Below the pieces are notes generated by a model that worked only from the letters and a program-made list of their open reading frames with translations, made no database searches and was not told where the DNA came from. Below are positions 6,177-63,266 of a stretch of 64,000 nt of DNA, piece by piece. A program made the translations under genes and the position numbers. Every line of letters begins with the position of its first letter. Within the stretch, counting starts at the first letter, position 1. The stretch lies in assembly GCF_030296055.1 (NCBI RefSeq), contig NZ_AP027370.1:1662501-1726500 (forward strand). Direction: 5' to 3'. The stretch comes from Hydrogenimonas cancrithermarum (GTDB taxonomy: Bacteria > Campylobacterota > Campylobacteria > Campylobacterales > Hydrogenimonadaceae).

Positions 6177-9175
6177 TCGAAGCCAATCTCTACGACTATT
6201 TCGAAAAAAGCAAAGCCCCGCAGATCCTGCTGGTCGAGAACGACAAAGAGGCGCAGACCGCCGCGACGGTCGCCACGCTGCACGGCATCGAATCCGTCGT
6301 ACTCCCGGATTTTCGTGCCACCTACGGCGAAGACCTCAGAAGCTGGCGGGAAGAGCTCTTTGCATTGAACGATGCCCTGAAACGCTATTACGAAAAAATC
6401 ATCCAAAATCCAAAATCCAAAATCCAAAATCCCATCCTGATCGCCCCGTACCACACCCTTCTCTATCCCCTGCCGAAGCCGGAGCTGATGCAAACCTTCT
6501 CTCTCGCGTTCGGCGACGATCTCGATCTCGAAGCGCTCAAAGAGAAGCTCTACGCATGGGGTTACAGCTTCGTCGACGTCGTCGAGACGAAAGGGGAGGT
6601 ATCGATCCGCGGGGATATCGTCGATATCTTTTCCCCCGGAAGCGAAAAGCCGTGGCGCATCAGCCTGTTCGACACCGAAGTGGAGAGTATCCGGACGTTC
6701 GAAGTGGAGAGCCAGAAGTCCAACAAAGAAGAAGAGCTCGAAGAGGTTGTCGTGGAGCCGGCACTCTTTTCCCTGACGAAGCCGGCGTTCGAAGCGCTGC
6801 AAAAACGGGTGGAGCTGAGCGACAGCGACGTTTTCGTCAAGGATGTGGCCTCTTTGGGGCTCTGGTTTCTGGAGGATCTCGCGCACGATCTGATGGCGGG
6901 GAAGATGGCGGTCGCGGTAAAAGATCTCGCCGACGAGGTGGCGTTCGCCTACGAACATGCCAAAAACGCCCTTCCCAAAGCGCGTTTCGACGTCGAAGTC
7001 GTTCCCGAAACGGGCCGTGTCAAAGCGATCGAACCGATCAATGTCGACCTGCTGACCGAAAACTACCCCGAGAGGGAACTTGTCATCGTCGCCGCCAGCG
7101 AAGCGCTCGTGCGCCGAAGCCCGATCAAGGAGCTGGCACGCGCGACGATCGTCAAAGCCGAGGGGGCCGTCAATCTTCTGACGCCCGAAAAGATCATCGT
7201 TTCGCTCAACAAACCGTTCAAGAAACGCGCCGTCAAGCGCCCGACGATTCTGCTCGACGACCTGAAGCCGGGCGACTACGTCGTGCATGAAAACTACGGT
7301 GTCGGCATCTTCAAAGGGATCGAACCGCACCAGGTGCTCGGCGCCGTGCGCGACTTCGTCCACATCGCCTACCAGAACGACGACACGCTGCTTCTACCGG
7401 TCGAAAACCTCGACATGATCGACCGCTACATCGCCGAAGGCGGTTCGCTGCCGGCCCTCGACCGGCTCGGAAAGGGGGGCTTCGGAAAGCTCAAAGCGAA
7501 AGTCAAAGAGCGCCTCTTCGCGATTGCGAGCGAGATCGTCAACATGTCGGCGAAGCGGATGCTGATAAAAGGGGCGGTGATCGATACCGATATCCCGGAA
7601 CTGTTCGAGTTCCGCGAGGCGTCGGGCTTCGAGTACACACCCGACCAGATCACGGCGGTGGAGGAGATTTTCGCCGATCTCTCCAGCGGCCGCGTCATGG
7701 ACAGACTGCTCAGCGGCGACGTCGGTTTCGGAAAGACCGAAGTGGCGATGAACGCGATTCTCGCCGTCGCCAAGTCGGGTTACCAGAGTGCGTTCGTCGT
7801 GCCGACGACACTGCTGAGCGCACAACACTTCAAGAGTGTCGAGGCCAGGCTCGCACCCTTCGGCGTGCGTATCGACAAGCTCGACCGTTTCACGACGGCG
7901 AAACGGAAACGGCAGATCCTCGAAGAGCTGGAGAAGGGGGAACTCGATCTCGTCGTCGGCACCCATGCGCTGCTCGGGGCGAAGTTCAAGAACCTGGGGC
8001 TTGTCATCATCGACGAAGAGCACAAGTTCGGCGTGAAGCAGAAAGAGGCGCTCAAACTTCTCAGCGAAAACGTCCATCTTCTCAGTATGAGCGCCACGCC
8101 GATTCCGCGAAGCCTCAACATGGCACTCTCCAAAATCAAAGGGTACAGCGAGTTGCGCACGCCGCCCGTGGAGCGCAAAGGGGTGCGTACCTTCGTCAAG
8201 AGTTTCGACGAGACGGTCGTCAAAGAGGCGATCATGCGCGAACTCCGGCGCGGCGGACAGCTCTTCTATGTCTACAACTCGATCGCCGGCATCGAGAGCA
8301 AGAAGAGCGAGCTTCTGGAGATTCTTCCCGGCCTTCGTATCGCGACGCTCCATTCGAAAATCACGGCGGCGCAGACCGAAAAGGAGATGCTGAAGTTCGA
8401 GGCGGGCGAGTACGACCTGCTGCTTTCCACCTCCATCATCGAGTCGGGTATCCATATGCCCAAAGTCAACACGATGATCGTCGACGGCGCCGACCGTTTC
8501 GGGATGGCGGACCTGCATCAGCTGCGCGGCCGTGTCGGGCGGGGCAAAGTCGAGGGGTACTGCTACTTTCTCGTCGAAAACAAGGATGCCCTCACCGACC
8601 AGGCCAAACGGCGGCTCATCGCACTGGAGAGCAACTCCTTCCTCGGAAGCGGTGCCGTGCTCGCCTACCACGACCTGGAGATCCGCGGCGGCGGCAACCT
8701 GATCGGCGAGAGCCAGAGCGGGCACATCAAGCAGATCGGTTATGCGCTCTACCTGAAGATGCTCGAGGACGCGATCCGTATTTTGAGCCAGGAGGCGGCG
8801 CCGGAACGCAAGAGTGTCGATATCAAACTCTCCATCACCGCCTATATTTCCGACGAGTTGGTGCCGCACGAGCGGGTCCGCTTGGAGCTCTACCGGCGTC
8901 TGAGCGCCTGCAGCGAGCCCCACGACGTCATCGAGATCGAGCAGGAGATCGAAGACCGCTTCGGCAAACCCGATCTTCCGACACGCCAGTTCCTCGATCT
9001 CGTCACGATCAAGGTACTCGCCCTCAAAAAGGGTGTCGAGCGGATCGGCAATTACAACGAAAATATCACAATACAGTATAATGATGAGAACAAAACGGTG
9101 GTCAAAGCGCGCAGCAGGGACGATGACGACCTGATCGCGAGCGTGCTGGAGGCACTGAGGAGCAAAGCGACATGA
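6173..9175 (+). CDS. mfd: Transcription-repair coupling factor Mfd
   Basis: Superfamily 2 DNA translocase that removes RNA polymerase stalled at lesions and recruits UvrA. 1000 residues. UvrB-like N-terminal part, then the RNA-polymerase-interaction domain (LKPGDYVVHENYGVGIFKGI near 365). The translocase domains carry Walker A GDVGFGKTEVA near 516 and DEEHKFGV near 614, and the relay domain and C-terminal TRCF domain follow. A heptamer array at 6401-6432 adds in frame the peptide IQNPKSKIQNP near residue 77, in the N-terminal UvrB-like part. The gene lies last in the conserved leuS-to-mfd block and overlaps the next gene by 4 bases. Confidence 0.97.
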   Translation: MIEANLYDYFEKSKAPQILLVENDKEAQTAATVATLHGIESVVLPDFRATYGEDLRSWREELFALNDALKRYYEKIIQNPKSKIQNPILIAPYHTLLYPLPKPELMQTFSLAFGDDLDLEALKEKLYAWGYSFVDVVETKGEVSIRGDIVDIFSPGSEKPWRISLFDTEVESIRTFEVESQKSNKEEELEEVVVEPALFSLTKPAFEALQKRVELSDSDVFVKDVASLGLWFLEDLAHDLMAGKMAVAVKDLADEVAFAYEHAKNALPKARFDVEVVPETGRVKAIEPINVDLLTENYPERELVIVAASEALVRRSPIKELARATIVKAEGAVNLLTPEKIIVSLNKPFKKRAVKRPTILLDDLKPGDYVVHENYGVGIFKGIEPHQVLGAVRDFVHIAYQNDDTLLLPVENLDMIDRYIAEGGSLPALDRLGKGGFGKLKAKVKERLFAIASEIVNMSAKRMLIKGAVIDTDIPELFEFREASGFEYTPDQITAVEEIFADLSSGRVMDRLLSGDVGFGKTEVAMNAILAVAKSGYQSAFVVPTTLLSAQHFKSVEARLAPFGVRIDKLDRFTTAKRKRQILEELEKGELDLVVGTHALLGAKFKNLGLVIIDEEHKFGVKQKEALKLLSENVHLLSMSATPIPRSLNMALSKIKGYSELRTPPVERKGVRTFVKSFDETVVKEAIMRELRRGGQLFYVYNSIAGIESKKSELLEILPGLRIATLHSKITAAQTEKEMLKFEAGEYDLLLSTSIIESGIHMPKVNTMIVDGADRFGMADLHQLRGRVGRGKVEGYCYFLVENKDALTDQAKRRLIALESNSFLGSGAVLAYHDLEIRGGGNLIGESQSGHIKQIGYALYLKMLEDAIRILSQEAAPERKSVDIKLSITAYISDELVPHERVRLELYRRLSACSEPHDVIEIEQEIEDRFGKPDLPTRQFLDLVTIKVLALKKGVERIGNYNENITIQYNDENKTVVKARSRDDDDLIASVLEALRSKAT
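6401..6432. repeat. Heptamer array, ATCCAAA units, inside mfd
   Basis: Four perfect ATCCAAA units plus ATCC. Three units equal 21 bp, so such a tract can lengthen a protein by seven residues without shifting the frame. Confidence 0.92.
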
Positions 9176-11272: not shown

Positions 11273-11304
11273 ACTCTCCACTCTCCACTCTCCATTCTCC
11301 ATTT
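11273..11304. repeat. Heptamer array, ACTCTCC/ATTCTCC units
   Basis: Three ACTCTCC units, one ATTCTCC and a partial ATTT fill the gap between sixA and the next gene. No inverted partner is visible close by. Confidence 0.9.
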
Positions 11305-11317
11305 CAAAGGTTCTCCT

Positions 11318-12130
11318 TTGAAGATCGGCTTTATCGGCGATATCGTGGGGCGTCCTGGGCGCGCGATGGTACGGAAACATCTGCAGGAGCTGCGTGAAAC
11401 GGAAGGGCTCGATTTCGTCATCGGCAATTACGAAAACGCCAGTCACGGCTTCGGCCTGACCGAGAAGAACGCCCAGGAGCTTTTCAAAGCGGGTATCGAC
11501 GTCATGACGGGTGGCAACCATACCTGGGACAAAAAAGAGATAAAAGGGATGCTGGAGTCGTTGCCGCTGCTTCGTCCCGTCAACTACCCCGAAGGGGTTC
11601 CCGGACGTGGCGTACGCATCTTCGAAGTTGGCGGAGAGCGGCTGGCGGTCGTCAACATCATGGGCCACTTCGCGATGCCGATGGTCGACAACCCTTTCAT
11701 CGCCGCCAACCGCATCGTCGATGTACTCCGCTCCGAAGGGATCGGGCATATCTTCATCGATATGCATGCCGAAGCGACGAGCGAAAAGCGGGCGCTCCTG
11801 ATGATGCTGCGCGAAAAGGTGAGCGCGATCGTGGGAACGCACACCCATGTCGGCACCGACGATCTGGTGATCGACAAGGGGTGTGCCTACGTGACCGACG
11901 TCGGCCTTACCGGATGTCGCGACAACGTCATCGGGATGGACGCCAGAGTGCCGATCGAGCGTTTTCTGACCGGGCTTCCCGGCCGCTTCGACGTACCGGA
12001 CAAGTGCAAAGCGATTTTGCAGATGGCCGTCGTACGGCTCGAGAAAGGGCGTGCGGCCGATGCGTACAAAATCCGGGTTTACAGCGAAGGCGACAGGGAG
12101 ATCGCGCTCAGGGCGCGGATAGAGGACTAA
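11318..12130 (+). CDS. YmdB-type metallophosphoesterase (TIGR00282 family)
   Basis: 270 residues from TTG 11318. Metal-binding motifs of the YmdB/TIGR00282 phosphodiesterases are clear: GFIGDIVGRPGR, GNYENASHGFG, TGGNHTWDKKE, NIMGHFAMPMVDNPF, HAEATSEK and GTHTHVGTDD. In Bacillus, YmdB hydrolyses 2',3'-cyclic nucleotides and influences development. The role here is unknown. Upstream spacing is filled by a heptamer array, so the start context is weak (AAAGG 10 bp before). Confidence 0.9.
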   Translation: MKIGFIGDIVGRPGRAMVRKHLQELRETEGLDFVIGNYENASHGFGLTEKNAQELFKAGIDVMTGGNHTWDKKEIKGMLESLPLLRPVNYPEGVPGRGVRIFEVGGERLAVVNIMGHFAMPMVDNPFIAANRIVDVLRSEGIGHIFIDMHAEATSEKRALLMMLREKVSAIVGTHTHVGTDDLVIDKGCAYVTDVGLTGCRDNVIGMDARVPIERFLTGLPGRFDVPDKCKAILQMAVVRLEKGRAADAYKIRVYSEGDREIALRARIED

Positions 12131-12151: not shown

Positions 12152-12173
12152 GGAGAGGCAAAAAAGCCTCTCC
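12152..12173. terminator. Hairpin between the YmdB-type gene and the small peptide gene
   Basis: Perfect 8-bp stem GGAGAGGC/GCCTCTCC around a six-A (or six-T) loop. It stands just after the convergent stops of the YmdB-type gene (+) and the peptide (-) and could end both transcripts, although no long U-run follows the stem. Confidence 0.5.
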
Positions 12174-12181
12174 TGTGACGG

Positions 12182-12241
12182 TCAGTGTGCTTTGATCGCA
12201 AAGATGCAGATCAGCGCAATGACAAGTAGTAGCCGCCACAT
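12182..12241 (-). CDS. Candidate type I toxin-like hydrophobic micro-peptide
   Basis: 19 residues, MWRLLLVIALICIFAIKAH: one charged residue after the start, a 13-residue hydrophobic helix and a basic tail. Form and length recall the Ibs/TisB class of membrane micro-toxins. A G-rich ribosome-binding site (GAAGGGGG) precedes the ATG. Its 5' region forms an inverted repeat with a short upstream transcription unit that has its own promoter and terminator. The protein call is inference from shape; no homology was tested. Confidence 0.5.
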   Translation of the reverse strand: MWRLLLVIALICIFAIKAH

Positions 12242-12347
12242 GATTGCCCCCTTCGGTGTAATTGGGGGGACGGTAAAAAAAAAGCCCGCCGGGAGCGACC
12301 CGACAGGCTAACCGTCCCTTCAATTACACCGAAGGTTACTACTTGTC
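12221..12347. repeat. Interrupted inverted repeat enclosing the peptide start
   Basis: Three matching blocks: GACAAGTAGTA (12221-12231) with 12337-12347, CCTTCGGTGTAATT (12250-12263) with 12322-12335, and GGGACGGT (12267-12274) with 12311-12318. The unpaired island 12232-12249 holds the peptide start codon. The loop holds the small-RNA terminator. Confidence 0.9.
12275..12347 (-). ncRNA. Candidate ~70-nt regulatory RNA with intrinsic terminator
   Basis: Bounded by a good promoter (12354-12383) and an intrinsic terminator on the minus strand: a GC-rich stem (12284-12309) followed by nine U (12275-12283). Its first ~35 nt are complementary, in three blocks, to the leader and early codons of the micro-peptide just downstream on the same strand. 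It could therefore act either as a trans-acting antitoxin RNA or as a cis attenuator of read-through transcripts. Confidence 0.55.
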
Positions 12348-12353
12348 GTTTCA

Positions 12354-12383
12354 ATTATAGCGAAAAAAGAGTGAAGATGACAA
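12354..12383 (-). promoter_or_regulatory. Sigma-70-type promoter for the small RNA
   Basis: TTGTCA (12378-12383), an 18-bp spacer and a perfect TATAAT (12354-12359), reading leftward. The -35 box overlaps the start codon of the divergent magIII-like gene. Confidence 0.65.
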
Positions 12384-13039
12384 ATAGCTACGAGCTTCTT
12401 AAAGTGTTATACACACTCCAACTGCCGATCCAGGCGCGCGATCCCTGGTGGTGGCCGAACAGCGGAACCTACGAGGTGGTGATCGGTGCCGTTCTGACGC
12501 AAAATACGAAGTGGCAGAAAGTGGAAGAGGCGCTGGAAAATCTTCGAACTCTGGAAGCGTTGACGATCGAAGGGCTGGCGAAGATCGACGAGGAGTCGTT
12601 GCGCGAGGCGATCAAACCGGCCGGCTTCTACAACACCAAAGCCAAGCGTCTCAAGCTTCTCAACCAATCCATCGGCGACAAGTTCGGCGATTTCGAAACG
12701 TTTCAGGCAGAAGTCGATCGCCGTTGGCTGCTCGGCAAGAAGGGAATCGGCGAAGAGACGGCCGACGCGATTCTGAACTACGCATGTTACGGTGAAGCGA
12801 TGGTGGTCGACAGTTATACGGCGGCACTGCTGCGCGCTTTCGGATACGACTTCGAGGATTACCGCGGCATTCAGGGGTGGCTGATCGAAGGGCTCAAAGA
12901 TTACGACATCAAAGTACGCGAACTTTTCCCCCGTGAGCCAAAAGCGCAGATCTACGCCCTTTTTCACGGAATGATCGTGGAGTACTGCAAGCGGTACAAA
13001 AAGGGAAAGAGTGTGGATGTGGGATTGTTGGAGGGTTGA
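12377..13039 (+). CDS. Endonuclease III-superfamily DNA glycosylase, MagIII-like
   Basis: 220 residues from ATG 12377 (GTG 12371 is an alternative). HhH-GPD fold: GAVLTQNTKWQKVE near residue 38, then LLGKKGIGEETADAILNYA and the following MVVDSYTAALLRAFGY with the conserved Asp. The C-terminal Fe-S cluster cysteines of Nth are absent, as in H. pylori MagIII, a 3-methyladenine glycosylase. It would remove alkylated bases in the cytoplasm. The exact substrate is inferred from this resemblance. Confidence 0.85.
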   Translation: MTNSYELLKVLYTLQLPIQARDPWWWPNSGTYEVVIGAVLTQNTKWQKVEEALENLRTLEALTIEGLAKIDEESLREAIKPAGFYNTKAKRLKLLNQSIGDKFGDFETFQAEVDRRWLLGKKGIGEETADAILNYACYGEAMVVDSYTAALLRAFGYDFEDYRGIQGWLIEGLKDYDIKVRELFPREPKAQIYALFHGMIVEYCKRYKKGKSVDVGLLEG

Positions 13040-13084: not shown

Positions 13085-13250
13085 GTTGAGTATTGAGTTT
13101 TGAGGGTTGAGAATTGAAACAGTTTTTTACCCAAAAATTGACCGAAACCCTTGACAAGGCTCGGCAGGCTGTGCTCGCCTTCTCAAAACTCAAAACTCAA
13201 AACTCAAAACTCAAAACTCAAAACTCAAAACTCAAAACTCAAAACTCAAC
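13085..13250. mobile_element. Mini-element 1: inverted heptamer arrays, no gene
   Basis: Left array 13085-13119 (GTTGAGT, ATTGAGT, TTTGAGG, GTTGAGA, ATTGAAA). Right array 13183-13250 has nine perfect TCAAAAC units plus TCAAC. The right array is the reverse complement of the left unit type. 63 bp lie between them and hold no ORF. The C40 peptidase ends inside the right array: its last codons and stop are heptamer units. Confidence 0.8.
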
Positions 13251-16584: not shown

Positions 16585-17373
16585 TCAACGTGAAAGCCAC
16601 TTTTCAGCGATGCGCTTCAACCCATCCGGATTCTCCGAAGCGAAAATTTTCAGATCGGATTTCCCTTGTTCGCGTGGTTTGCATCCGTTGTTTTCCAAAT
16701 GCTCCGCGATCGCCTCGCCGGAGTGGATGAGCAGGGGCCTGTTTGGAAAATAGTTGCGAATGGCGTCTGCAATGAGCGGAAAATGGGTGCAGCCGAGGAT
16801 GATCGCGTCGGGTGGCCGAACCTCTTTGAAGTAGTGGTCGAGTACACTTTGGAGCACCGGCCCTTCGAAAAGCCCCTCTTCGACGATCGGTACGAAAAGT
16901 GAAGGTGCGATCGCCTCGATGTTTTCGAACCCCAGCTCGCGAATGCCGTTTTGGTAACGGCCGCTGCCGATCGTCGCTTTCGTCCCGAGCACCAGAATAC
17001 GGCTTGCGCTTGGAAGGTTCGCGTTTTTAAGCGCCAGAATACCCGGTTCGATCACCCCGTAGACATCGAAGTCTGCATTGGCCCGAAGCTCGGGCAGCGC
17101 ATGCGCACTGACACTGTTGCAAGCCGTGATCATCAGATCGATCTCGAAGTTTTTGAAAAACTCCAACGCCTCGAGCGCATACCGGGTGATCGTGGCAGGA
17201 TCTTTCGGCCCGTAGGGAACACGCGCCGTGTCGCCATAGTAGATGATCTCGTCGAACAGGTGATGCTCGAGAAGGCTTTTCACCACAGTCAAACCACCAG
17301 AGCCGCTGTCGAAAACGCCTGCGCGTTTTCGAATGGAGAATGGAGAATGGAGAATGGAGAATTTTTTTTTCAT
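16585..17373 (-). CDS. murI: Glutamate racemase
   Basis: 262 residues; makes D-glutamate for peptidoglycan. AGVFDSGSGGLTVVKSL holds the first catalytic region, YGDTARVPYG follows, ACNSVSAHALPEL has the first catalytic Cys and GCTHFPLI the second. The protein normally begins just before AGVFDSG. Here a leader MKKKFSILHSPFSIRKR is added, coded by the heptamer array of S23 element 1. Function is probably retained because the leader precedes the first strand. Confidence 0.95.
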   Translation of the reverse strand: MKKKFSILHSPFSIRKRAGVFDSGSGGLTVVKSLLEHHLFDEIIYYGDTARVPYGPKDPATITRYALEALEFFKNFEIDLMITACNSVSAHALPELRANADFDVYGVIEPGILALKNANLPSASRILVLGTKATIGSGRYQNGIRELGFENIEAIAPSLFVPIVEEGLFEGPVLQSVLDHYFKEVRPPDAIILGCTHFPLIADAIRNYFPNRPLLIHSGEAIAEHLENNGCKPREQGKSDLKIFASENPDGLKRIAEKWLSR

Positions 17374-19250: not shown

Positions 19251-19639
19251 CCTGTAAGCGCCATCGCCAGAAGCGCAGGGTAGATTACGACATTGATCCA
19301 TGGCATCCATGGCGAAAGCGGAACACTGAGCATGCCTCGAAACTCGGCCGAGAGCGCACCTTCGTCGATCTTCCTTACCATCCAGAGTTTGAAGGCGAGG
19401 TCGGCCGCTTTCATGACCAATATAAGGCTCAGAAGCGTCCCTCTTCCACCCTGGTAAAGAAAGATGAAAAGCACCAGCCAAAACGAAGGATGCATCAGCA
19501 ACAGAACGAAGATGTCGATATGGTAATAATGGCGGACCTTCTCCAATACCCCGCCCAACGTCGGCGCATGCTGCCACCAGCTTTCGAAAATCTCGCAGAG
19601 TATCAGAAGTACGATGAAAAAAACCGCGTCATTCATCAT
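19247..19639 (-). CDS. Unrecognised small membrane protein
   Basis: 130 residues, with about four hydrophobic segments (7-17, 44-62, 66-80 and the C-terminus) and basic residues between. No family recognised. Its start codon lies at the edge of a heptamer array (ATGATGA units on the coding strand), which supplies several alternative ATG codons; MMNDAVFF is the likely N-terminus. It follows galE in the same direction with only the arrays between them. Confidence 0.6.
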   Translation of the reverse strand: MMNDAVFFIVLLILCEIFESWWQHAPTLGGVLEKVRHYYHIDIFVLLLMHPSFWLVLFIFLYQGGRGTLLSLILVMKAADLAFKLWMVRKIDEGALSAEFRGMLSVPLSPWMPWINVVIYPALLAMALTG

Positions 19640-19691
19640 TCATCATTCATCATTTAAAATTCAACATTCAACATTCAACATTCAACATTCA
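19628..19691. repeat. Two adjoining heptamer arrays (TCATTCA and ATTCAAC units) between galE and the next gene
   Basis: 19628-19653 has three TCATTCA units plus TCATTT. 19658-19691 has four ATTCAAC units plus ATTCACC. They have different units but the same orientation. galE ends inside the second array (its final residues NVEC and stop are array-coded), and the downstream gene begins in the first. Confidence 0.92.
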
Positions 19692-27210: not shown

Positions 27211-28650
27211 TCAGTTGCGTTTGAAATCGTCGTCGAGACGGACGATGTCGTCTTCACCCGTATACTCCCCTACCTGCGCCTCGATGAGTACGACGGGTAT
27301 CTTCCCTTCGTTGGCGAGGCGGTGGACTTCACCCATCTTGATGTAGGTCGACTCGTTGGGGCGTATCAGTTTGGTTTCGTTGCCCACCGTCACCGTAGCC
27401 GTACCGCTTACGACGATCCAGTGTTCGTTTCGATGGTAGTGCTTTTGCAGGCTCAGGCGTTTGCCCGGTTTCACGACGATACGCTTGATCTTGTAGCCAG
27501 GGGTGTCTTCCAGTACCGTGTAAGTTCCCCATGGACGGTGGGCGGTCAGGTGAATCTTCGGCAGTTCCGAGCCTTTCTCTTTCAAATGCTTGACGACCTC
27601 TTTGACTTTCTGAGAGCTTCCTTTTTTCGAAACCAGCAGCGCGTCTCCCGTGTCGACGATCATCAGGCCTTCCACGTCGATCGTGGCGATGGTTCTGTCG
27701 TCGGCGATGACGAGGTTGTTTTTCGAATCCAAAGAGATGTGGTTGTCGTTGAGAGTGTTGCCGTTTTCATCTTTCTCCAGCTCATCGTAGAGGGCGTCGA
27801 AACTTCCCAGGTCGCTCCAGCCGATGTCGCAGGGGATCACCTTGACCTTATCGCTCTTCTCCATCACCGCGTAGTCGATGCTTTCGTCGGGAATCGCCAT
27901 CATATCTTCATGTCGTATGCGCAGCTGCCCTTGGGTAATCTCCTGTTCGTTTTCATACGCCTCGAGGCACGCTTCGTAAATCTCGGGCGCGTACTTTTTC
28001 AGCTCATCCAGAAAGAGGCCGGCTTTAAAACAGAACATGCCACTGTTCCAGTAGTAGTTTCCCGCATCTAGATATTTTTGCGCCGTTTCGGCATTGGGTT
28101 TCTCATGAAATTTTCGAACATCGAGTACAGAAAACTTCCCACTTCCCACTTCTAACTTCTCACTATCTCGAGACTTTGCCTCGATATACCCAAACCCCGT
28201 TTCCGGATAGGTCGGTTCGATGCCGAAAGTGACAAGGTTTCCCTCTTCGGCGGCAAGCTTCGCAGTGGATACCGCTTCGAGATAGGCTGTTTCGTTTTTG
28301 ATGAGGTGGTCCGACGGTGTGACCAGAACGATCTCCTCCGCATCGATGTTCAGGCATGCCAGGGCGATGGCAGGTGCCGTGTTGCGTCCTACCGGTTCGA
28401 GTAGGAATGTTGAATGTTGAATGTTGAATGTTGAATGAATACCCGGTTCTTCGAGCTGGTCGAGAGCCAGAAAGTACTGCTCGGCATTCGAGACGATGAA
28501 CTGGTGGTCACATGCTTTGGCATTGCGCTCCACGGTCAGCTGAAAAAGCGATTTGTCATTGAAAAGTTTGACGAACTGTTTTGGCATCAATGTCCTGCTG
28601 ATGGGCCAGAGTCTCGTGCCGCTTCCGCCGCATAGAATGATGTTGGTCAT
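27211..28650 (-). CDS. manC: Mannose-1-phosphate guanylyltransferase / mannose-6-phosphate isomerase
   Basis: 479 residues, type II bifunctional enzyme supplying GDP-mannose. Nucleotidyltransferase signature LCGGSGTRLWPISR at the N-terminus. The C-terminal cupin phosphomannose isomerase includes RPWGTYTVLEDTPGYKIKRI and QKHYHRNEHWIV. Two heptamer arrays are translated in frame: [11 protein letters not shown] near residue 73 and EKLEVGSGKF near 163. GDP-mannose feeds gmd and fcl downstream. ATG 28650 overlaps the gmm stop. Confidence 0.95.
   Translation of the reverse strand: MTNIILCGGSGTRLWPISRTLMPKQFVKLFNDKSLFQLTVERNAKACDHQFIVSNAEQYFLALDQLEEPGIHSTFNIQHSTFLLEPVGRNTAPAIALACLNIDAEEIVLVTPSDHLIKNETAYLEAVSTAKLAAEEGNLVTFGIEPTYPETGFGYIEAKSRDSEKLEVGSGKFSVLDVRKFHEKPNAETAQKYLDAGNYYWNSGMFCFKAGLFLDELKKYAPEIYEACLEAYENEQEITQGQLRIRHEDMMAIPDESIDYAVMEKSDKVKVIPCDIGWSDLGSFDALYDELEKDENGNTLNDNHISLDSKNNLVIADDRTIATIDVEGLMIVDTGDALLVSKKGSSQKVKEVVKHLKEKGSELPKIHLTAHRPWGTYTVLEDTPGYKIKRIVVKPGKRLSLQKHYHRNEHWIVVSGTATVTVGNETKLIRPNESTYIKMGEVHRLANEGKIPVVLIEAQVGEYTGEDDIVRLDDDFKRN
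28134..28168. repeat. Heptamer array, ACTTCCC units, in manC
   Basis: ACTTCCC twice, ACTTCTA, ACTTCTC, ACTATCT. Translated near residue 163 of ManC. Confidence 0.88.
28405..28438. repeat. Heptamer array, GAATGTT units, in manC
   Basis: Four perfect GAATGTT units plus GAATGAA. Translated as [11 protein letters not shown] near residue 73 of ManC, between two conserved parts of the nucleotidyltransferase domain. Confidence 0.93.
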
Positions 28651-62179: not shown

Positions 62180-62762
62180 AACCGGCTCTGTCTGGGAGGT
62201 AGTCGCTCTGGCGTATAGCGCTGACCAGTGCGACCGGGTCGTCGAAAAAACGGGGCTTTTCATAGGGGTGGATGTAGAGCCACCGTTCGCCGACGCGGAT
62301 GATCTGCGGATCGAAAAAGCCATCTTTGCGGCAGCGAACCGCAAAGGAGGGGCGGAATTCGTCGGTGCCTATCTTGATGTGGGGGTAGTCGATACTTTGA
62401 AGGGTCTCGTCGGGATTGAGACGGTAGGCGATCCCGGTTTCACGAAGAGAAAAGACCGAGAGCAGCTCACCTTCGGCTGTCAGACGGCATTTTTTCGATT
62501 CGCTGCAGTAGAGGGTCATTGCACGCTTCTTGTAGTTCGGAGAGGTTTTGAAAAGGGTGTCGATGGTCCGCAGCGAAAGCTCTTCACGGGCCGCTTCCGC
62601 GGGGGATTTCGGCATGACGGTGTTGAAAGCGATGCCGTAGACGATGCCCATCAGTAGAAGTACGATGAGCAGTTCGATCAGGGTGAAGGCGCCACGAAGT
62701 GGCGCGAGTGTTGAGTGTTGAGTGTTGAGTGTTGAGTGTTCGGATGCGTGAAGCTTACTCAT
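62169..62762 (-). CDS. gspH: Type II secretion pseudopilin GspH-like, with array-coded leader
   Basis: 197 residues. Ordinary prepilin start FTLIELLIVLLLMGIVYGIA is preceded by a long basic leader that contains HSTLNTQHSTL, coded by a heptamer array. The cut would fall before Phe after ...PLRGA. Overlaps gspI by 11 bases; the start lies inside mini-element 3. Confidence 0.8.
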   Translation of the reverse strand: MSKLHASEHSTLNTQHSTLAPLRGAFTLIELLIVLLLMGIVYGIAFNTVMPKSPAEAAREELSLRTIDTLFKTSPNYKKRAMTLYCSESKKCRLTAEGELLSVFSLRETGIAYRLNPDETLQSIDYPHIKIGTDEFRPSFAVRCRKDGFFDPQIIRVGERWLYIHPYEKPRFFDDPVALVSAIRQSDYLPDRAGYAQ

Positions 62763-62798: not shown

Positions 62799-63266
62799 TC
62801 TCTCGCACTCCTGCAGTGTGATGTCCTTGGCATCCCCTTCGCCTCCCTCTTTGCCGTCGGCTCCGAGGCTTATGATATTGATCTCGTTGCCTTCGTTGAT
62901 GTAGATGTAGGGGTGCTTCCACGGGTCTCGTGGGAGTGTTTTGCTCTCGAGATAACCGGTCGGTGCGTAGTTCGTGTACTTCTGGGGATCGGGGTTTTTG
63001 ATGAGCGCTTCGAGCCCCTCCTCCGTTGTCGGGTACATGCCGTTGTCGAACTTGAACGATTTGAGTGCCTCCTCGATCTGCTTCATCTGGATGCAGACCA
63101 GCTTGCGTTTGGCACTTTCGGCCTTGCCGATCAGGTTCGGCAGCACGAGGGCACTCAGAAGTCCCAGAATGATGATGACGATCATCAGTTCAAGGAGCGA
63201 AAACGCAGAACGTTTTCGGGAGTGTTGAGTGTTGAGTGTTGAGTGTTGAGATCTTTTTTCTTTCAT
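62793..63266 (-). CDS. gspG: Type II secretion major pseudopilin GspG
   Basis: 157 residues. Leader with array-coded HSTLNTQHS, then KRSA and FSLLELMIVIIILGLLSALV, Glu5 present. GMYPTTEEGLEALIKNP and DPWKHPYIYINEGNEI match the GspG Ca-binding region, and the globular end fits. Overlaps the S23 copy 4 stop by 4 bases. Confidence 0.93.
   Translation of the reverse strand: MKEKRSQHSTLNTQHSRKRSAFSLLELMIVIIILGLLSALVLPNLIGKAESAKRKLVCIQMKQIEEALKSFKFDNGMYPTTEEGLEALIKNPDPQKYTNYAPTGYLESKTLPRDPWKHPYIYINEGNEINIISLGADGKEGGEGDAKDITLQECERH

Follow-up and report, generated by a model that had tools for sequence, protein, structure and literature searches.

Type I antitoxins are described as RNAs encoded on the strand opposite to their toxin genes, either overlapping or divergent, and transcribed from promoters of their own (PMC4147584; PMC12390103). 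The locus presented here, found in a 64,000 nucleotide stretch of DNA from Hydrogenimonas cancrithermarum (contig NZ_AP027370.1, positions 1,662,501 to 1,726,500; hereafter the window), raises the question of whether a short RNA encoded upstream of a 19-residue hydrophobic peptide, and on the same strand, can serve as the antitoxin of that peptide. The locus sits between two plus strand genes that, from their translations, we take to encode YmdB-type phosphoesterase-like (11318-12130) and endonuclease III-like (12371-13039) proteins. The original prediction was of a type I-like toxin-antitoxin locus with a new geometry, and the promoter, short RNA, terminator, hydrophobic ORF and three paired blocks that it listed are all present in the sequence where it had placed them. 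On the minus strand the parts follow one another in the order promoter, RNA of ~74 nt with its terminator, Shine-Dalgarno (SD) sequence, ORF, hairpin and anti-SD tail (Table 1); the last two, together with a helix that joins the start codon to the sequence just past the stop codon, are additions of the present analysis. Two inverted repeats, one of 25 nt (92% complementary) and one of 17 nt (88%), make up the three paired blocks that join the RNA to the mRNA. The toxin ORF has no intrinsic terminator 3' of it, which leaves the 3' end of the mRNA undefined. Our preferred reading, to which we would give a probability of roughly 70%, is that the locus is a compact toxin-antitoxin module of ~240 bp that combines a type I-like RNA-RNA mechanism with a type III-like layout, and in which a read-through toxin mRNA would be closed by its own 3' tail.

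Table 1. Parts of the module, numbered by position in the window
Feature	Position	Strand	Basis
Promoter, TTGTCA-18-TATAAT (-10 at 12359-12354)	12354-12383	-	Scan; 11/12 consensus
Candidate antitoxin RNA, ~74 nt	12275-12348	-	Scan; intrinsic terminator at its end
Intrinsic terminator, 11-pair stem and 8-T run	12309-12283 (stem), 12282-12275 (T run)	-	Scan
Pairing block 1, RNA side (RNA 5' end; partner is codons ~3-8)	12334-12350	-	Inverted repeat; family covariation
Pairing block 1, mRNA side (within coding sequence)	12218-12234	-	Inverted repeat; family covariation
Pairing blocks 2 and 3, RNA side	12311-12335	-	Inverted repeat; family pairing and covariation
Pairing blocks 2 and 3, mRNA side (reaching into SD region)	12250-12274	-	Inverted repeat; family pairing and covariation
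Shine-Dalgarno sequence GAAGGGGG	12247-12254	-	Sequence; SD present in intact copies
ORF of 19-residue hydrophobic peptide MWRLLLVIALICIFAIKAH, candidate toxin	12182-12241	-	Sequence; family coding constraint
CCGTCACA just past stop codon (partner is TGTGGCGG, 12240-12233, at start codon)	12174-12181	-	Fold; compensating changes
3' hairpin GGAGAGGC-TTTTTT-GCCTCTCC	12152-12173	-	Folds; hairpin at same place in nearly all intact copies
Anti-SD tail TTGCCCCCTTC, 11 nt, complementary to GAAGGGGGCAA	12141-12151	-	Fold; SD/tail type match in family

Comparison with related copies establishes the parts of the module, its cognate pairing and covariation, the coding constraint on its ORF, and its gain, loss and decay. 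A DNA search of 60 relatives returned copies within the same genus, and a first covariance model, built from seven copies, was positive in seven of the 18 Hydrogenimonas genomes and also found copies in other families of the order. A second model was positive in 38 of the 151 Sulfurimonadaceae genomes (the family to which Sulfurimonas belongs), with one to six matches each, and in 16 of 397 genomes sampled across the phylum; copy counts are based on these model searches. A DNA pattern scan of named genomes produced 79 stretches, of which only three lay outside Campylobacterota records; most came from Sulfurimonas, Sulfuricurvum and Helicobacteraceae or Campylobacterales MAGs, and Sulfurimonas indica NW8N is among the carriers. 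The pattern required the T run, the SD and the ATG, so that these are partly selected for, and it did not require the arms, the -10, the peptide or the 3' tail. The three stretches outside of named Campylobacterota records (L078, L086 and L092) have no match to the model and were set aside as chance; a weak model match in genome G441 (L181), which has no terminator, also looks like chance. Using the covariance model together with the DNA pattern, more than 90 distinct copies were found in Campylobacterota (Hydrogenimonas, Sulfurimonas, Sulfuricurvum and relatives), at one to six per genome, and the module recurs across deep-sea and freshwater sulfur bacteria. Absence of the peptide or of the pairing from related genomes had been named at the outset as grounds for abandoning the idea; both recur, and most of the original interpretation is upheld.

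The order and spacing of the parts are constant across 91 distinct copies. The -10 is TATAAT, or matches it at five of six positions, in nearly all of these copies, the RNA is 59-88 nt in length (mostly 70-85), and in almost every intact copy the T run and the ATG are 29-34 nt apart. In the Sulfurimonadaceae the terminator loop of the RNA (L065-L143, for example L130 and L054) is a near-palindrome of few types (GGGATTAATTACCC, GGGAGTCATGACCC and GGGAGTAATTAACCC), which could permit loop-loop contact between RNAs. A search of the whole window with Rfam at the gathering cut-off gave no match, and at a relaxed E-value there were sub-threshold matches only, the best of which, to MIR1319 and Burkholderia anti-hemB, were far under the gathering scores. 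NCBIfam and Pfam returned nothing of note for four members of 20-21 residues (members of 19 residues fall below the length that these tools can handle), and the module is undescribed in the open-access literature that was searched, a scope that most subscription papers fall outside. Carriage on viruses was considered and rejected: a single element lies in one viral contig, L144 (IMGVR_UViG_3300026512_000316), at 11843-11988, with the peptide MNKILIAIIFVCLLAPVLH, and two further family patterns gave none. The viral copy is flanked by ORFs that, by eye, are antirepressor-like and IS200/IS605 transposase-like.

The peptides of the 91 copies are 19-21 residues long and are encoded by an ORF with an SD, and diversity by codon position across the family (0.40/0.10/0.40) indicates coding constraint. 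In the Sulfurimonadaceae the peptide takes the form M-D/N-K-L-hydrophobic-LMCIFAP-M/L-L-N/H/R. A small hairpin within codons 11-16 of the ORF, as in L045 and L053, seems to be kept despite differing sequence, being GTGCA-TTTT-TGCAC in the Sulfurimonadaceae and GATCGCGA-TTTTTT-TCGCGATC in L045. Inverted repeats, a discrete insertion of ~240 bp at a gene junction and multiple copies per genome are what would also be seen if the locus were a DNA-level element, such as a small inverted-repeat transposon or a recombination site, with an incidental ORF. The coding constraint argues against such an element, as does the strand-specific succession of TATAAT, T run, SD, ATG and stop at fixed spacing, and the pairing covaries copy by copy and not as one spreading sequence; we give this explanation almost no weight.

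Predicted pairing between RNA and mRNA is specific to each copy. Over the 91 copies the mean predicted energy of cognate pairing is -38.7 kcal/mol, versus -19.7 kcal/mol for non-cognate pairing, and for 83 of the 91 RNAs their own mRNA is the best partner. Within the 22 genomes that have two to six copies the values are -40.9 kcal/mol for cognate and -21.4 kcal/mol for paralogous pairs, from which the copies in one genome appear to be largely orthogonal; orthogonality breaks down between closely similar copies, for instance L208 and L072 or L214 and L077. The outer helix joins the 5' end of the RNA to codons 5-7; in 61 aligned sequences its pairing stands at 98.3%, and at each of its eight pairs both partners have changed. 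The covariation score of this helix was reached by none of 500 shuffles, and slid controls were 36-61% paired. Covariation of the paired blocks in relatives had been suggested as a check on the locus, and strong compensatory change is indeed found there, along with recurrence of the promoter, the terminator and the spacing. The covarying changes lie within codons, yet second codon positions vary very little, so both the peptide and the RNA pairing are under selection. Covariation alone is not proof of action in trans, since a purely cis-acting rod needs the same complementarity.

Such a rod is predicted from folding. The 199-nt transcript folds at -104.3 kcal/mol (z = -10.9; none of 200 shuffles was as stable) and the read-through leader with the start region at -76.3 kcal/mol (z = -8.9), and the same rod forms in five relatives folded alongside, despite their diverged sequence (z from -7.4 to -11.8). 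The extreme stability of the rod within the read-through transcript would suit an alternative in which the upstream RNA is an attenuated leader that does not act in trans, the terminator and the rod keeping a membrane peptide at a very low level, and complementarity by itself cannot separate cis from trans. The original prediction suggested that the short RNA could also fold read-through transcripts shut. The rod does form, but in the folds the leader clamps both flanks of the start site and brackets the SD, the core of which stays partly exposed when the tail is absent; leader sequestration as the sole lock on the SD was rejected on these grounds, and in the folds most of the sequestering is done by the 3' tail.

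The 3' end is a regular feature of the family, with nearly every intact copy having a hairpin after the stop codon followed by a tail complementary to the SD. The type of tail tracks the type of SD, there being 42 GGGGG/CCCCC and 25 GGGAG/CTCCC combinations and few that are mismatched, and in Hydrogenimonas the match is copy-specific (GGGGACA/TGTCCCC, GGAGGC/GCCTCC and GAGGAGGGC/GCCCTCC). The helix between the start codon and the post-stop sequence has compensating changes in the relatives L044 (ACGCCACA) and L045 (CTTCGCG). Once freed of its leader, the mRNA of the window is predicted to form an 11-pair SD-tail helix and a second helix between the start region and the post-stop sequence, whereas its 5' arm and some ten bases at codons 4-7 stay unpaired. 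In the mean of folds of 76 freed mRNAs, positions -28 to -13 are open, the SD is closed and codons 5-8 are mostly open. These open positions are the pairing sites of the short RNA, which argues against a leader that acts in cis only. Removal of the anti-SD tail alone barely opens the SD in the folds (from 0.06 to 0.21 unpaired), perhaps because a hairpin arm can substitute for it.

The module has been gained, lost and degraded. At the locus of the window, the flanking genes are 3-6 nt apart in G001, G002 and G010, which represent the empty site; G000, G006, G007 and G011 have the module from the promoter through the anti-SD tail, and G016 has a remnant consisting of the promoter and RNA arm only. 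In G015 the gap at this gene junction is filled by a 7-bp tandem-repeat array. Similar arrays with differing units (CTCAAAA, GAATGGA, GAGTGTT and others) recur in the window, several of them intergenic (1847-1879, 6401-6432, 11273-11301, 13182-13249, 17331-17362, 19630-19691, 28405-28437, 62706-62740 and 63220-63250). The genome from which the window is taken has a second copy, L035 (~791-837; G000 C1:1775591-1775636, minus strand), in which two tandem promoter-RNA-terminator units stand ahead of one peptide ORF; the first of these units seems to be only a partial match to that toxin and may serve another target.

Elsewhere in the family the toxin is broken and the RNA persists, through a change of ATG to ATA (L049), a stop at codon 2 (L048), a frameshift (L038), a truncation (L064) or an interruption (L089), and some RNAs are toxinless (L194, L195 and L202). 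In G286 and G302 the toxinless RNAs have kept their promoter and terminator, and each matches, at all three blocks, a toxin encoded elsewhere in its genome (-37.8 kcal/mol in G286, where cognate pairing is -44.7 kcal/mol, and -28.5 kcal/mol in G302). Such RNAs are the best hint of action in trans, although they may also be remnants of duplication. That toxinless RNAs retain the promoter, terminator and arms is at odds with a leader that works in cis only, and an arm whose pairing extends into the coding sequence, with a terminator that would free that arm as an RNA of its own, is more in keeping with a regulator that acts in trans. We consider purely cis action unlikely.

The peptide is probably a toxin. 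The RNA could instead regulate, in just the manner described here, a small regulatory or structural membrane protein that is made on demand; many small membrane proteins are benign, and residues 10-16 (LMCIFAP in the Sulfurimonadaceae) are conserved beyond what bulk hydrophobicity needs. A harmful product is the better fit to the patchy presence of the module (7/18 Hydrogenimonas and 38/151 Sulfurimonadaceae genomes), to the several orthogonal copies per genome, to the frequent loss of the ORF while the RNA is kept, and to the layered locks on translation. A peptide without toxic function seems to us quite unlikely.

No second promoter for the toxin was found between the RNA start and the SD of the family copies, where TATAAT-like hexamers are depleted (30 versus 66.7 expected). 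These hexamers are also depleted antisense over the toxin (67 versus 104.4 expected), and both a separate toxin promoter and an antisense promoter were rejected. Promoters that match the consensus only weakly do occur in Campylobacterota and could be missed, in which case an antisense antitoxin, or a promoter belonging to the toxin alone, might have escaped detection and the locus might be an ordinary type I system; given the depletion in both regions, we regard this as very unlikely.

The module is best placed by comparison with known systems. Like the type I systems hok/Sok, tisB/istR-1 and ldr/rdl, it has a short hydrophobic peptide (an ORF of 19-21 residues with an SD and coding constraint), an RNA complementary to a structured toxin mRNA (predicted pairing with covariation and cognate specificity) and several copies per genome. 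Unlike them, its RNA lies upstream on the same strand, with one promoter and depleted antisense -10 sites, and since the published definition includes an opposite-strand antitoxin with its own promoter, the module is not a plain member of type I. The type I-like label is apt for the hydrophobic peptide and the complementary RNA, and fails for the strand and promoter of the antitoxin; the same-strand geometry is real and is unlike any type I description in the literature searched. The Ibs/Sib systems of E. coli encode a peptide that also has 19 residues and is built alike (IbsC MMRLVIILIVLLLISFSAY, compared with MWRLLLIVLLLCLLAEKAF and similar peptides here), and consist of multi-copy repeats of ~140 nt whose antitoxin extends over both the ribosome binding site and codons (PMC4147584). 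In the annotation, however, sibC overlaps ibsC from the opposite strand, whereas the antitoxin of the module is on the same strand. The module has no match in Rfam, nor its 20-21 residue members in NCBIfam or Pfam, and no antisense Sib RNA layout, placing it outside the Ibs/Sib family, and the likeness to IbsC in length and build may be convergence.

In the AapA/IsoA system of Helicobacter pylori, a member of the same phylum, the toxin mRNA is kept inert by long-distance pairing between a 5' SD and a 3' anti-SD and is activated by 3' trimming, and IsoA is a small RNA antisense to aapA (PMC6733600). From sequence and folds, the toxin mRNA of the module is likewise closed by a 3' anti-SD, but there is no IsoA-type antisense RNA, the sole promoter-terminator unit found being upstream on the sense strand. 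With the type III systems (ToxIN, AbiQ, CptIN and TenpIN) the module shares an arrangement of promoter, antitoxin RNA, Rho-independent terminator and toxin on one strand, and in toxIN termination of ~90% gives a ratio of RNA to toxin transcript of ~10:1 (PMC4147584). In type III systems the antitoxin consists of tandem repeats and binds a protein endoribonuclease, whereas the module encodes a hydrophobic peptide of 19 residues, with whose mRNA the RNA pairs; direct or tandem repeats were sought in the RNA and none were found.

From these features we infer a scheme of transcription, read-through, processing, trans action and toxicity that is modelled on hok and AapA, both of which have a closed toxin mRNA that 3' trimming activates (PMC6733600), and on toxIN for the ratio set by a terminator (PMC4147584). 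A single promoter would mostly give the ~74-nt antitoxin RNA, ending at the strong terminator, and occasional read-through would give the mRNA of a 19-residue membrane-type toxin peptide. As the read-through transcript carries its own antitoxin, it would be born folded shut. Removal of the leader, as by RNase III cleavage within the rod or the U-rich loop, would release a toxin mRNA still kept closed by pairing between its 3' tail and the SD, with its 5' arm and codon loop exposed as landing sites for free antitoxin RNA. This RNA would pair on both sides of the ribosome binding site, over ~25 nt upstream of and into the SD and over codons 3-8. Translation of the toxin would have to await a shortage of antitoxin RNA that coincides with opening of the mRNA by 3' trimming or remodelling. 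Somewhat more cautiously, we think it probable that the scheme extends to a widespread, undescribed Campylobacterota family whose members would use a single promoter and a single terminator to yield both the antitoxin RNA and a self-silenced read-through toxin mRNA. Termination would set the ratio of the two, as in type III, RNA-RNA pairing would silence the toxin, as in type I, and paralogues would be kept orthogonal by compensatory change that runs through the toxin codons.

In the published toxin-antitoxin descriptions that we searched, a layout combining a same-strand RNA antitoxin with a tiny peptide was not found, and relative to these it is new. A published de novo search examined the antisense strand only (PMC12390103), and screens of that kind, as well as gene callers that skip ORFs of 19 codons, would both miss the module. 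Since each copy is only ~240 bp, the module is directly testable. Nature has supplied dozens of orthogonal RNA-mRNA pairs in this family, and in them the same codons are under selection for both the function of the peptide and the pairing of the RNA; such a set would be useful for studying how toxin-antitoxin systems diverge without cross-talk.
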